Shown in pieces: positions 4,106 to 58,750 of a stretch of DNA of 64,000 bases (positions within the stretch are counted from its first letter, which is position 1; the number at the start of each line of letters is the position of its first letter). A model generated the notes under the pieces. That model saw nothing but the letters and a program-made list of their open reading frames with translations. It did no database searches and was not told the DNA's origin. The position numbers were made by a program, and so were the translations under genes. Source of the DNA: Candidatus Kinetoplastibacterium crithidii (ex Angomonas deanei ATCC 30255) (GTDB lineage Bacteria; Pseudomonadota; Gammaproteobacteria; Burkholderiales; Burkholderiaceae_B); assembly GCF_000319225.1 (NCBI RefSeq), contig NC_019815.1:620001-684000 (forward strand), read 5' to 3'.

Positions 4106-4181
4106 TGGCAGGGGCAGTAGGAATCGAACCTACAGCCTTCGGTTTTGGAGACCGACGCTCTGCCAATTGAGCTATACCCCT
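4106..4181 (-). tRNA. trnW: tRNA-Trp (CCA anticodon)
   Basis: Cloverleaf with acceptor AGGGGTA/TGCCCCT (one G-U pair), D arm AGCTCAATTGGCAGAGC, anticodon loop CTCCAAA reading CCA, and T loop TTCGATT. Discriminator G and an encoded CCA end (4108-4106). It sits between tuf and secE, its normal place in betaproteobacteria. Confidence 0.97.
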
Positions 4182-53894: not shown

Positions 53895-54707
53895 TTAAAT
53901 GTAATTTGTTTTTGCAATGTTATTTGATAATAGTGTTTTCAGCTGTTCTCCTGGGTTATCTGATTTCATGAAATATTCTCCTATTAAAAATGCGTTAACT
54001 TTATTTTCTCTCATAAATTTCAAATCTTCTGGTGAATTTATGCCACTTTCTGTGATTATAATTTTGTCTTCTGGTATAAAGTTAATGAGGTCTATCGTAA
54101 TTTTTATATCAGTTTTAAAATTTCTTAAATTTCTATTATTAATTCCAATCAAAGGAGTTTTTAGATTTAAGGCTATTTCAACTTCTTTTAAATTATGTGT
54201 TTCGACTAGAACATCCATTCCTAGTTCTAGTGCTATATTTTCTAATTCATAAAGTTTATTTTTTTCTAGTGCTGAGACTATAAGTAATATGCAATCTGCT
54301 CCCATTGCTCTTGATTCTAATATTTGATAGTCATCAATTATAAAGTCTTTCCTAAGTATTGGTAATGAACAAGCTGATTTGACCTGTTTTAAATATTCTG
54401 AAGAACCTTGGAAAAATTGTTGGTCTGTTAATACAGATATACAGGCAGCACCGTTTTCCTCATAACTGGTTGCAAATAATGAGGGGTTAAAATTTTTACT
54501 TAAAATACCTTTAGAAGGAGAAGCTTTTTTTATTTCTGCTATAATAGCAGGATACCCATTTTGGATTTTTTTATGAATTGCTTTTTCAAAAGAGCGTATA
54601 TCGTTATTATTAATTTTTAATAATAGTTCTTGTTCATTGCAATTTTTTTTAGATGCCAATATTTCATCTTTTTTTACATCTATTATCTTTTTAAGAAGAT
54701 CATTCAT
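53895..54707 (-). CDS. trpC: Indole-3-glycerol phosphate synthase
   Basis: Fourth enzyme of Trp synthesis (CdRP to indole-3-glycerol-phosphate). 270 aa from ATG 54707 (the in-frame TTG 54713 is unsupported). (beta/alpha)8 barrel with [47 protein letters not shown], and [11 protein letters not shown]. Its start overlaps the end of trpD. Last gene of trpEGDC. Confidence 0.96.
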
Positions 54708-55734
54708 TTTCAAATTTCCTTGTATAACTACAGAATTCTTCTAGTTTTTCTCTTGCTGAATTGTTTTTTATTGCTTCAAATGCCATAAGAATACCATGCT
54801 TTATGTCAGATGATTTATTGGCAGTATATATTGCTAGGCCAGCATTTAGAGCAACTATATCACGGGCAGCACCTTCTACATTATTTAGAGCTTCTAAGAT
54901 CAGTTCGCAAGATTCTATGCTATTGTTTACTTTAATATTTCTATTTGAAATCATTGTCATCCCAAAATCTTCTGGATGTATTTCATATTCGTGTATAGAT
55001 CCATTTTTTAATTCTCCAATCATAGTAGAACTTCCGAGAGCTGCTTCATCCATGCCTTCTTTTCCATACACAATTAAAACATGCTTTGATCCTAATTTTT
55101 GTAATACTCGTACCTGTATTCCTACTAGATCTGGATGGAATACTCCCATTAATTGATTGCTAGCTCTAGCTGGATTTGTAAGAGGACCAAGAATATTGAA
55201 AATAGTTTTAACTCCTAATTCTTTTCTTATGTTTGCTATGTTTTTCATAGCCTTTTGATGTAAAGGAGCAAACATAAATCCTATTCCTGTATTTTCTAGG
55301 CACTCTATGACTTGTTGAGGATTTAATGATATATTGGCACCTAATTGTTCTAGAACGTCTGCGCTACCGGATGAAGAAGAGGCGCTTCTGTTTCCATGTT
55401 TTGCAATTTTAACTCCAGCTGCAGCAGCAACAAACATTGCAGCAGTAGATATATTAAAAGTATTACTATTATCTCCTCCAGTTCCACACATATCTAATAT
55501 GTCATCTTTATTTGCAAAAGGCACCGATAGAGAAAAACTTCTTAGAGCTTGTGCAGCAGCAGTTATTTCATCTATAGTTTCTTTTTTAACACGTAATCCT
55601 ATGAGTAAAGCACTTGCAATTTGAGGGGAAATTTCTCCTTTTATCATAAGTTGCATAAGATATAACATTTCATCATGAAAAATTTCACGATGTTCTATGC
55701 AGCGAGTTAATGCTTCAGTAATTGAAATAGTCAC
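54700..55734 (-). CDS. trpD: Anthranilate phosphoribosyltransferase
   Basis: Joins anthranilate to PRPP. 344 aa. It starts at GTG 55734 with GGTG about 6 bases upstream, matching the homologous start ([22 protein letters not shown]); the TTG 55746 would be four codons longer. PRPP-binding [35 protein letters not shown], and [14 protein letters not shown]. It follows trpG by about 12 bp. Confidence 0.96.
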
Positions 55735-55746
55735 ATTTATCACCAA

Positions 55747-56313
55747 TTAATTAATTTTAAGAAAATTCTGTAATAGATCATATCCATATTCACTTAGAAT
55801 AGATTCTGGGTGATATTGAACTCCAAATACAGCTAGCTCCTTATGGCATACTCCCATAATGTCTCCATCTTCACTTCTAGCTGTTATTTCTAGACAATCA
55901 GGAAAAGTATCTGGGTCTATAGTTAAAGAGTTATATCTTATGGCAGTATATGGTGAAGGAATCTTTTCAAAGATATTTTTTCCATTATGATTAATTTGCA
56001 CAGTTTTACCATGCATGACTTTCGGAGCTCGGATAATGGTTCCTCCATATGCTTCTCCAATTGCTTGATGTCCTAAACATACACCAAGTATAGGTATTTT
56101 TCCAGCAAACTCTAATATAGATGGAATTGATATGCCCGCTTGAGAAGGAGCACATGGACCAGGAGAAATACAAATCTTGCTAGGATTCAAAGAATGTATT
56201 TCTTTTAGAGTAATTTGATCATTTCTAAAGACACAAACTTCTTCACCCAGTTCACCAAAATATTGAACCAAGTTATGAGTAAAAGAATCGTAATTATCAA
56301 TCATTAATAACAT
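55747..56313 (-). CDS. trpG: Anthranilate synthase glutaminase component
   Basis: Supplies ammonia to TrpE. 188 aa, class I amidotransferase. Cys79 in [15 protein letters not shown], plus the His-Glu pair in VQYHPESIL. In some bacteria the same subunit also serves para-aminobenzoate synthesis for folate; folB in this window shows that a folate pathway is still present, but this cannot be settled here. It lies 15 bp after trpE. Confidence 0.97.
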
Positions 56314-56328
56314 ATTTTTTCCATTTAA

Positions 56329-57852
56329 TTAGAAGGGTTCATCTAAACCATTTTGAACTTGTTCAGCCGCACGTAAAATGGCACGTGATTTTGCTTCTGT
56401 TTCTGCCAACTCAAGTTCTGGATCAGAGTCTGCAACTATACCTGCAGCAGATTGTACATATAATATTCCATTTTTTATTATCCCTGTTCTTATTGCTATG
56501 GCAAGATCCATTTCACCACCGTAGCTTAGATATCCAGCAGCTCCACCATATACTCCTCTACGTACAGGTTCCAATTCATCAATTATTTCCATTGCTCTTA
56601 TTCTTGGAGCCCCTGTTAGTGTTCCTGCTGGAAAAGAAGCTTTTAACACATCCATGCTAGTCATACCAGGTTTTAAATATCCAGATACATTAGATACTAA
56701 ATGCATAACATGAGAATATCTTTCTACAGACATTTTATCAGTAACTTTTACGGATCCGATTTCTGCTATCTTACCGATATCGCTTCTTGCAAGATCTATT
56801 AGCATTACATGTTCTGCTATTTCTTTAGTATCTAATTTTAGATTTTTTTCTAGTTCAATATCTTGTGCTGGATTTGATCCTCGTTTTCTGGTACCTGCTA
56901 GTGGCCTAATGGTGACTTGTGATTTGTTTTTTCCATTGCTGTCTGACACATTTTCTTGTCTTACCAATATTTCTGGTGATGAACCTACTACTTGAAAATC
57001 ATCAAAGTTCCAAAAATACATATAAGGAGATGGATTTAAAGATCTTAGTGCTCTGTATAAAGACAATGGAGCATCTCTATAAGGTTTTGCTATGACTTTT
57101 CCTAGAACTATTTGCATAATGTCACCTGCAGCAATATATTCTTTTGCTTTCTTTACCATTTCCAAATATTTTTCTGATCCGCAGTCTCTTTCTTCAGATG
57201 TTTGCATACTACAACGACTGTATGGTATTTCTATATTTTTCTTAAGTTGTTGTTTTAATTCTTGTAATCTTTTTTGAGCTTTAGAATAGCTTTCTGTTTT
57301 GTTAGTATCAGCATAAACTATCAGATATATTCGACCAGCAATATTGTCGACTACTGCTAATTCATCAACATGAAGCAGCATTATGTCTGGTGTACCTTCT
57401 TCCATTCCTGCCGGGAATGATTTTTTAGGCATACCTAAACAAGGTTCTATATGTCTAACTGTATCATATCCAAAATATCCTGCTAATCCTCCACAAAAAC
57501 GTAACATATCAGTTTGTAATGCTACTTTGAATCTAGATTGGTATTGTTCAATAAATTTGAGAGGGTCTCCTTCATATGTTTCAACTACTTTACCATTTGT
57601 CACAACCTCTGTAGTGGTTCCGCTAGATCTTATTATTGTTTCTGCAGGCAAGACTATAAAGGAGTATCTGCCAAATCTTTCCCCTCCTATCACCGATTCC
57701 ATAAGGCAACTCATTTTCCCTGCTTTAGGTCCAGAATGGGCTAACTTGAGGTAAAGAGATAGAGGTGTATCTAAATCTGCATATATTTCTGAAATAAGTG
57801 GTATTCTATTAAAGCCTTGGGCAACGAGGGACTTAAATTCTATTTCTGTCAT
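56329..57852 (-). CDS. trpE: Anthranilate synthase component I
   Basis: Converts chorismate to anthranilate with TrpG. 507 aa from ATG 57852 (AAGGA 7 bases upstream); a TTG at 57888 inside the terminator hairpin is not credible. N-terminal regulatory half carrying PLSLYLKLAHSGPKAGKMSCLMESVIGGERFGRYSF, which includes the Leu/Ser region of the Trp-feedback site, and a C-terminal chorismate-binding half (VVGSSPEILVR, TIRPLAGTRKRG, HVMLIDLARSDIG, and SFPAGTLTGAPRIRAMEIIDE). Expression is under the attenuator just upstream. Confidence 0.97.
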   Translation of the reverse strand: MTEIEFKSLVAQGFNRIPLISEIYADLDTPLSLYLKLAHSGPKAGKMSCLMESVIGGERFGRYSFIVLPAETIIRSSGTTTEVVTNGKVVETYEGDPLKFIEQYQSRFKVALQTDMLRFCGGLAGYFGYDTVRHIEPCLGMPKKSFPAGMEEGTPDIMLLHVDELAVVDNIAGRIYLIVYADTNKTESYSKAQKRLQELKQQLKKNIEIPYSRCSMQTSEERDCGSEKYLEMVKKAKEYIAAGDIMQIVLGKVIAKPYRDAPLSLYRALRSLNPSPYMYFWNFDDFQVVGSSPEILVRQENVSDSNGKNKSQVTIRPLAGTRKRGSNPAQDIELEKNLKLDTKEIAEHVMLIDLARSDIGKIAEIGSVKVTDKMSVERYSHVMHLVSNVSGYLKPGMTSMDVLKASFPAGTLTGAPRIRAMEIIDELEPVRRGVYGGAAGYLSYGGEMDLAIAIRTGIIKNGILYVQSAAGIVADSDPELELAETEAKSRAILRAAEQVQNGLDEPF

Positions 57853-57876
57853 AATTTTCCTTAGAATGAATAAAAA

Positions 57877-57906
57877 AAACCCGGACAATCATTTGGTTCC
57901 GGGTTT
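57877..57906 (-). terminator. trp attenuator terminator
   Basis: GC-rich hairpin AAACCCGGA (57906-57898 in transcript order) pairing with TCCGGGTTT (57885-57877), followed by eight T's. It ends about 20 bases before the trpE start. It would stop transcription unless the upstream CCGGGTT of the leader (about 57957-57963) pairs with the first arm, which is an exact antiterminator complement. Confidence 0.85.
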
Positions 57907-57941
57907 TATATATTTGATAACGCAAAAATATAATTCAATTT

Positions 57942-58022
57942 TCAAGCAAAGACTAACCCGGGGCAGTAGTGCCACCAAAGCCAACAATTAGTATTGATAT
58001 TTTGTCTATGTTTGCAATTCAT
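57942..58022 (-). CDS. trpL: trp operon leader peptide
   Basis: A 26-codon ORF from ATG 58022 to TGA 57942. It carries Trp codons 14, 16 and 17 (W-L-W-W; TGG at 57983, 57977 and 57974), a striking cluster in a genome this AT-rich. The end of the reading frame overlaps the CCCCGGGTT that can form the antiterminator. A ribosome stalled at the Trp codons under tryptophan shortage would leave that segment free, as in classic trp attenuation. The start lacks a strong Shine-Dalgarno sequence. Confidence 0.8.
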   Translation of the reverse strand: MNCKHRQNINTNCWLWWHYCPGLVFA

Positions 58023-58072
58023 AATTTTGCTATTGATTGTTCATAAATTGTAATAATGTAAATTATTATAAG

Positions 58073-58100
58073 AATGTATCCATTCTGATGCTTTTGTCAA
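58073..58100 (-). promoter_or_regulatory. Putative trp operon promoter
   Basis: TTGACA (58100-58095), 16-base spacer, TACATT (58078-58073). The -35 is consensus and the -10 matches four of six. Transcription would start near 58066, giving a leader of about 210 bases that contains trpL and the attenuator. It lies just past the gph stop, so trp is separate from rpe-gph. Confidence 0.5.
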
Positions 58101-58129: not shown

Positions 58130-58750
58130 CTAAAATATTTTTTTATTATGATAGCCATAAGGCAATACTAAAACTGCTGCTACGTTAGCAGCTCTAGCTG
58201 CCATGACATCATTACTAGAGTCACCTATCATAATTGTTTTTTCAGGTGTAGTGTTAAGTTGTTTACATGCAAATAATAGTTGATCTGGTTCTGGTTTGCA
58301 ATGTTGGCATGTGTCACCACAAATTACGTAAGAGAATAAATGAGAGAGGTTTAGTTTTTGTAAAATTTGAAGAGTAGGTTTCGTGGGCTTATTTGTTACT
58401 ATAGATAATGACAGTTGTTCCTGTTTTAGCTTATTTAAGCCTTCTAAAACTCCTGGATATAAAACAGTTTTACTTCCATTGCAATTACAGTAGTATCTGG
58501 AAAATAAATCTTTTGCTTTGTTGAAGGTATATTTTTTGTCAAGTATGTTGTTTTTGCTATAGGGGTAATCATATAATGATTTGTTTATTAAATTATCAAT
58601 GCCTTTTCCTATGAAACCCTTTATTATATGTGCAGGTAAATTTGTTAATTTTAAATCTTTTCTCATATAATTAATAGAATCAGTTATGTCTAGTAATGAG
58701 TCTATTAGTGTTCCATCTAGATCTAGTAACACAGATGAAATTTTATTCAT
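58130..58750 (-). CDS. gph: Phosphoglycolate phosphatase
   Basis: HAD-superfamily phosphatase that clears 2-phosphoglycolate from DNA repair. 206 aa. Motif I LLDLDGTLIDS with the nucleophile Asp, motif II SIVTNKPTKPT, and motif IV MIGDSSNDVMAARAANV. The cap is helical. It overlaps the rpe end by 8 bp and in this clade usually stands in rpe-gph-trpE order. Confidence 0.93.
   Translation of the reverse strand: MNKISSVLLDLDGTLIDSLLDITDSINYMRKDLKLTNLPAHIIKGFIGKGIDNLINKSLYDYPYSKNNILDKKYTFNKAKDLFSRYYCNCNGSKTVLYPGVLEGLNKLKQEQLSLSIVTNKPTKPTLQILQKLNLSHLFSYVICGDTCQHCKPEPDQLLFACKQLNTTPEKTIMIGDSSNDVMAARAANVAAVLVLPYGYHNKKIF

Follow-up and report, generated by a model that had tools for sequence, protein, structure and literature searches.

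Does a bacterium with a much reduced genome still adjust tryptophan synthesis to demand at the level of transcription, and has selection kept the means of doing so? The question is raised by the region upstream of trpE in the window, a stretch of 64,000 nucleotides of Candidatus Kinetoplastibacterium crithidii that belongs to a genome of 821,813 bases. The bacterium is apparently a symbiont living inside single-celled insect parasites, its genome much reduced. Reduced symbionts are often thought to lack regulation of amino acid supply, and a retained attenuator contrasts with that picture.

Gene context and anatomy of the trpE leader

In E. coli, the trp attenuator consists of a leader ORF with Trp codons, a mutually exclusive antiterminator and terminator, and a U run, all upstream of trpE. 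The window site has the same parts as E. coli trpL (RF00513, Trp_leader) in the same place. On the reverse strand, the gene order is rpe, gph, leader, trpE, trpG, trpD, and trpC (Table 1); the short leader ORF preceding the tryptophan biosynthesis genes carries a cluster of Trp codons, and an intrinsic terminator lies between it and trpE. We consider it very probable that trpEGDC is preceded by a classical ribosome-mediated transcription attenuator.

Table 1. Positions of the genes and leader elements at the trp locus of the window
Feature	Position	Strand	Remarks
Candidate -35 (TTGACA) of the leader promoter, 3' end of gph	58095..58100	-	Putative promoter
gph-like HAD hydrolase, gene upstream of the leader	58130..58750	-	Pfam HAD_2, 1.4e-37
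Leader ORF, 26 codons, MNCKHRQNINTNCWLWWHYCPGLVFA	57942..58022	-	Putatively translated
Trp control codons TGG CTT TGG TGG (W-L-W-W)	57972..57983	-	Trp codons start at 57983, 57977, and 57974
Arm A (CCGGGTT), 5' arm of the antiterminator	57955..57961	-	Folding
Arm C (AAACCCGGA), common to antiterminator and terminator	57898..57906	-	
Arm D (TCCGGGTTT), 3' arm of the terminator	57877..57885	-	Terminator fold -13.7 kcal/mol
Terminator T8 run	57872..57879	-	First three T double as stem bases
trpE, anthranilate synthase component I	56329..57852	-	Pfam Chorismate_bind, 1e-86; Anth_synt_I_N, 2.2e-26
trpG, glutamine amidotransferase	55747..56313	-	Pfam GATase, 7.5e-58
trpD, anthranilate phosphoribosyltransferase	54700..55746	-	Pfam Glycos_transf_3, 1e-85
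trpC, indole-3-glycerol phosphate synthase	53895..54713	-	Pfam IGPS, 1.3e-87

The initial annotation had described an intact trp attenuator made of a 26-codon ORF with three Trp codons, an exact antiterminator complement, and a GC-rich terminator with a T8 run, and the anatomy bears this out in each part. Arm A, which in contrast to E. coli trpL lies inside the leader ORF and before its stop codon, begins 10 nt past the last Trp codon and is complementary over its whole length to AACCCGG (57905-57899) within arm C. Arms C and D form the 9-bp terminator stem, with the T run after it. The trpE gene starts with the ATG at 57852, preceded by AAGGA at 57862-57858. No Shine-Dalgarno-like motif (GGAG, AGGA, GAGG, AAGG, or GGGA) occurs in the 22 nt preceding the window leader ORF, and such a motif was found in the 22 nt before the start in 1 of the 28 leaders examined. 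A leaderless start, raised by the missing motif, was considered and set aside, no fixed promoter position having been found. A frameshift within a run of A shortens the window copy of gph relative to two sister strains, where the gene is intact; what remains of the window gene continues in a different frame.

We scanned both strands of the window for short ORFs in which a stretch of 4 codons includes 3 Trp. Five matches fell in four ORFs, and a terminator hairpin stood behind the trpE leader only; in 60 windows simulated under a first-order Markov model, there were 8 Trp-cluster matches, none with a terminator. The terminator pattern, searched with up to 3 mismatches, matched exactly at the leader site and, with 2 mismatches, on the site's own complement (0.07 matches expected; at least 2 matches in 1 of 100 shuffles). 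Global fold stability was dropped as evidence, since the leader as a whole folds with an unexceptional minimum free energy (z -1.54), and 16 of 200 shuffles fold at least equally well. A generic terminator scan (loop of up to 8) omits the leader hairpin, whose loop, counted in that way, exceeds the limit, and promoter-like sites were no commoner than in shuffles (75 vs 81.7).

Folding by ribosome position and the proposed switch

Folds were predicted for the RNA not covered by a ribosome, position by position, with arm D absent or present. A ribosome usually covers RNA up to a 3' edge 15 nt beyond the first base in the P site. With arm D still unmade, the predicted probability of A:C pairing was 0.97 for a ribosomal A site on any one of the three Trp codons and 0.00 for a ribosome at the leader stop; given the assumed 15-nt edge, a ribosome on the last Trp codon exposes RNA that starts precisely at the first base of arm A. 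With arm D present, the terminator was favored at equilibrium in all ribosome states (P(C:D) 0.92-0.97), so that any switch must be kinetic and decided before D is available. It is by folding only that an antiterminator excluding the terminator in dependence on ribosome position was found. For ribosome-free RNA with D not yet made, P(A:C) was 0.90, or 0.65 from a shorter 5' start, and the full fold shows a hairpin over the Trp codons. Because the ribosome-free RNA favors A:C before D, the window folds give no good support for a protective 1:2 hairpin, which sets them apart from E. coli trpL, and they show no clear drive toward termination in untranslated RNA.

The same ribosome-position folds were computed across the family for 31 loci, L030 being left out. 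P(A:C) at the stop was 0.00 in all 31 loci, and on the first Trp codon it reached at least 0.93 in 28, with weaker pairing at L020 (0.45), L026 (0.66), and L034 (0.78). The gap between the Trp codons and arm A was 10 nt in 27 of the 31, the exceptions being L002 and L003 (9), L004 (7), and L017 (13).

On the model suggested by these folds, transcription would begin upstream, probably within the 3' end of gph, and a ribosome would translate the leader as polymerase advances. When charged tRNA-Trp is scarce, the ribosome would stall on W-L-W-W with its leading edge just short of arm A, leaving arm A to pair with the emerging arm C, and polymerase would continue into trpE. When charged tRNA-Trp is ample, the ribosome would reach the stop codon and cover arm A, C would pair with D, and transcription would terminate at the T run. 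To judge from this architecture, the symbiont would tune tryptophan synthesis to the charging of tRNA-Trp.

Distribution of the leader in the genus and family

The genus sample comprised 8 genomes, namely, the window genome and seven further genomes, one of which encodes a TrpE 98% identical to that of the window. The W-x-W-W leader is kept in 6 of the 8, and the pattern search returned one site in each of these six switch-keeping genomes along with one extra, unrelated match in G006. In G005 (locus L004), the leader reads W-R-C-F, with one of three Trp codons left and the terminator intact, and is possibly a switch in decay. In G004, the Trp leader and the GC-rich terminator are both absent, gph is missing from this place, and trpE follows rpe. 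The initial annotation had named relatives lacking the Trp codons or the paired arms as evidence that would count against it; G005 and G004, 2 of the 8 genomes of the genus, are such relatives, so that some lineages retain the switch, whereas in others it is dispensable or decaying. At locus L003, the stop codon of the sister leader at L002 is a fourth Trp codon just past arm A, and the leader is longer.

Beyond the genus, trpE was present in 28 of 29 other genomes of the family, and a Trp-rich leader was identified at 27 of 28 same-family trpE loci, 25 of them with the full W-x-W-W; L021 and L032 have two Trp only, and L038 has no Trp-rich leader. The window attenuator is therefore inherited. 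Leaders of free-living family members (L008-L035) have in common with the window the arms, the 10-nt spacing, and the position between gph and trpE. They differ in reading W-R-W-W, whereas the window lineage reads W-L-W-W, and the free-living relatives mostly carry an extra CCCGG-like segment after arm A that was not seen in the genus.

Given that the Trp codons and the 10-nt ruler are conserved across the family, as is arm A, we think it very unlikely that the hairpin is a mere terminator of rpe-gph and the Trp-rich ORF incidental, even though the hairpin does sit between gph and trpE, and the terminator of G005 is intact despite the disappearance of two Trp codons. Taking the leader as an attenuator, the switch type is well known, and its partial or whole loss in sister symbionts is a useful natural comparison. 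The presence of intact, weakened, and lost forms within a single genus makes it possible to test directly whether a symbiont matches its tryptophan output to need.

Selection and covariation

Retention of the switch in a reduced genome had been taken in the initial annotation to imply selection. We defined functional sites as the Trp codons, the arms, and the T run, picked from the model and not from the alignment. Among the close strains at L001-L003, 0 of 39 functional sites were variable vs 28 of 151 other sites (P 0.0009), and in a second trio (L005-L007), 0 of 38 were variable vs 41 of 154 (P 3e-5); none of the 9 Trp-codon bases varies in either trio. With functional sites invariant and their surroundings variable, the attenuator looks selected. 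The two trios of related symbionts are independent of each other, and 2 of the 8 genomes of the genus show decay or loss of the switch.

The same data weigh on the idea of a decaying relic, that is, an inherited attenuator that is unused and has persisted through too little time. Such a relic would accord with the decay or loss in two genomes of the genus and with a 1-nt difference beside arm A that lengthens the leader of the window strain from 22 to 26 codons. That difference, however, spares the Trp codons and the arms, and in both trios the functional sites show no variation amid variable surroundings, so we regard a relic as improbable. The preferred reading is of an attenuator that is real, inherited, apparently selected, and of the classical kind, with a mechanism that appears ordinary; its interest is moderate and lies in where the attenuator is kept and where it is lost.

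Compensatory changes in relatives, a further point to be checked, support the terminator and give weak support to the antiterminator. Of 32 loci, 22 have G-C and 10 have A-T at the terminator pair adjoining the CCC core, with pairing kept in every one. This covariation set left out L027 and L032 although leaders are present there; no terminator was recognized at L027. The core of the antiterminator does not vary and served as the anchor, so that its covariation says little. Its flanking pairs (126 of 192 vs a shuffle mean of 120.7, a value reached or passed by the observed one's equal in 76 of 2000 shuffles) gave weak support, and antiterminator covariation was set aside as weak evidence.

A candidate promoter in the gph tail

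The TTGACA hexamer proposed as promoter-like is present, but it lies inside the gph coding frame of relatives, where it encodes the Leu-Thr of D/N-L-T-K, and its -10 is weak. The only -10 at normal spacing is TACATT (4 of 6) at 16 nt, and no good -10 was found 16-18 nt from TTGACA. The hexamer is identical in all 7 genus genomes with a gph tail, and in nine genes of the window, TTG is used for 36 of 319 Leu codons. We discarded a codon test of the hexamer within gph: with the short G001 fragment, 6 conserved codons were comparable, 5 of them identical, and the test was uninformative.

Outside the genus, a different motif was identified. Within 500 nt upstream of trpE, TGNTATAGT occurs at 21 of 22 free-living loci vs 0 of 8 in the genus; the free-living loci compared are L008-L030 except L013, and the motif lies in the gph tail. 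By its sequence, TGNTATAGT resembles an extended -10 promoter. It uses the rare Ile codon ATA of the gph tail; in trpE of the same loci, 52 of 599 Ile codons are ATA.

In G001 (locus L007), gph is in fragments from ~750 to 225 bases upstream of trpE, and the leader downstream is intact. When L007 was compared with L005, 334 of 469 aligned gph bases were identical and 172 of 641 positions were unaligned, vs 79 of 92 identical bases, ungapped, in the stretch that runs from TTGACA up to the leader (P 0.003). For the intact pair L005 and L006, the contrast was weaker, with identities of 489 of 639 in gph vs 78 of 92 in that stretch (P 0.08). That the stretch from TTGACA to the leader is better kept than the broken gph suggests a promoter now situated at TTGACA, and on these alignments, it is plausible that TTGACA serves as one.

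A bolder reading follows from the occurrence of TGNTATAGT outside the genus and of TTGACA within it, together with the stretch from TTGACA to the leader outlasting the decay of gph in one symbiont: an obligate endosymbiont of ~0.82 Mb would keep a functional trp attenuator that senses demand and provides feedback on the supply of amino acids to its host, its promoter re-founded inside gph. We offer this tentatively, as a possibility that we would lean somewhat against. If it is true, the sister symbionts with a one-Trp leader and with no leader would make up a natural gradation between sensing and constitutive expression.

Comparison with known systems

The window leader scored 17.4 bits against Rfam RF00513 (Trp_leader), below the gathering cut-off of 41 (E 0.51) and amid many chance-level matches, and seven related loci had no Rfam match at the cut-off; filing the leader under Trp_leader was therefore rejected. 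In Sinorhizobium meliloti, as described in the available part of its source, rnTrpL likewise combines a Trp leader ORF with attenuation upstream of trpE(G), and its RNA begins at the ATG (PMC7298713), whereas the window transcript would begin upstream, probably within gph. Action in trans is reported there for rnTrpL/peTrpL (PMC7298713, available part). By that precedent in another trp attenuator, the terminated window leader might also act in trans as a small RNA or peptide, and an attenuated transcript would be a short RNA with a stable end; the leader peptide varies freely outside the Trp motif, however, and we give such a role hardly any credence beside plain attenuation in cis.

Other symbionts with reduced genomes also make amino acids for their hosts, including Buchnera, Serratia symbiotica (with leader loss), and reed-beetle symbionts, according to the accessible parts of the sources (PMC3229713, PMC4122931, PMC12508126). 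There, leader peptides and attenuation are said to be lost in Buchnera (PMC3229713), and trp attenuation is proposed for the reed-beetle symbionts with no leader shown in the part available (PMC12508126). Trp leaders have been proposed in Chlamydia, another group with reduced genomes (PMC3937554, in part), so the principle would not be unique to the window symbiont. The window leader is not described in the available portions of PMC3846528, PMC12508126, PMC5343134, PMC4122931, PMC3229713, PMC3766115, PMC2965389, PMC5632650, PMC8229890, PMC1183508, PMC3937554, and PMC7298713. A literature search for trp attenuation in Bordetella found none, the matches, judged by titles, concerning E. coli. It is possible that the window leader was described earlier, and Vitreschak and others 2004 would be the likely place of an earlier prediction in this family.

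Tryptophan supply and other operons

In this symbiosis, the symbiont holds the route from chorismate to tryptophan, and the hosts have only the beta subunit of tryptophan synthase, as stated in the part of the source available (PMC3846528). We searched upstream of other amino acid genes for a leader ORF together with a terminator and found none upstream of ilvB, leuA, and trpB (5 of 8 symbiont genomes each) or hisG (3 of 8); for leuA, trpB, and hisG, the profile match from which the search was made begins inside the gene. Three symbiont ilvB loci have leader-like ORFs without a terminator, and one weak hairpin was seen at trpB. Eight free-living ilvB loci (best match per genome) likewise included none with both a leader ORF and a terminator, so that no loss of other attenuators can be claimed. 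A survey of tRNA genes, in which 30 of the 44 places found were typed, identified a tRNA-Trp gene (anticodon cca) in the same window at 4109-4181 (-), and trpS and trpB were each present in all 8 genomes of the genus.
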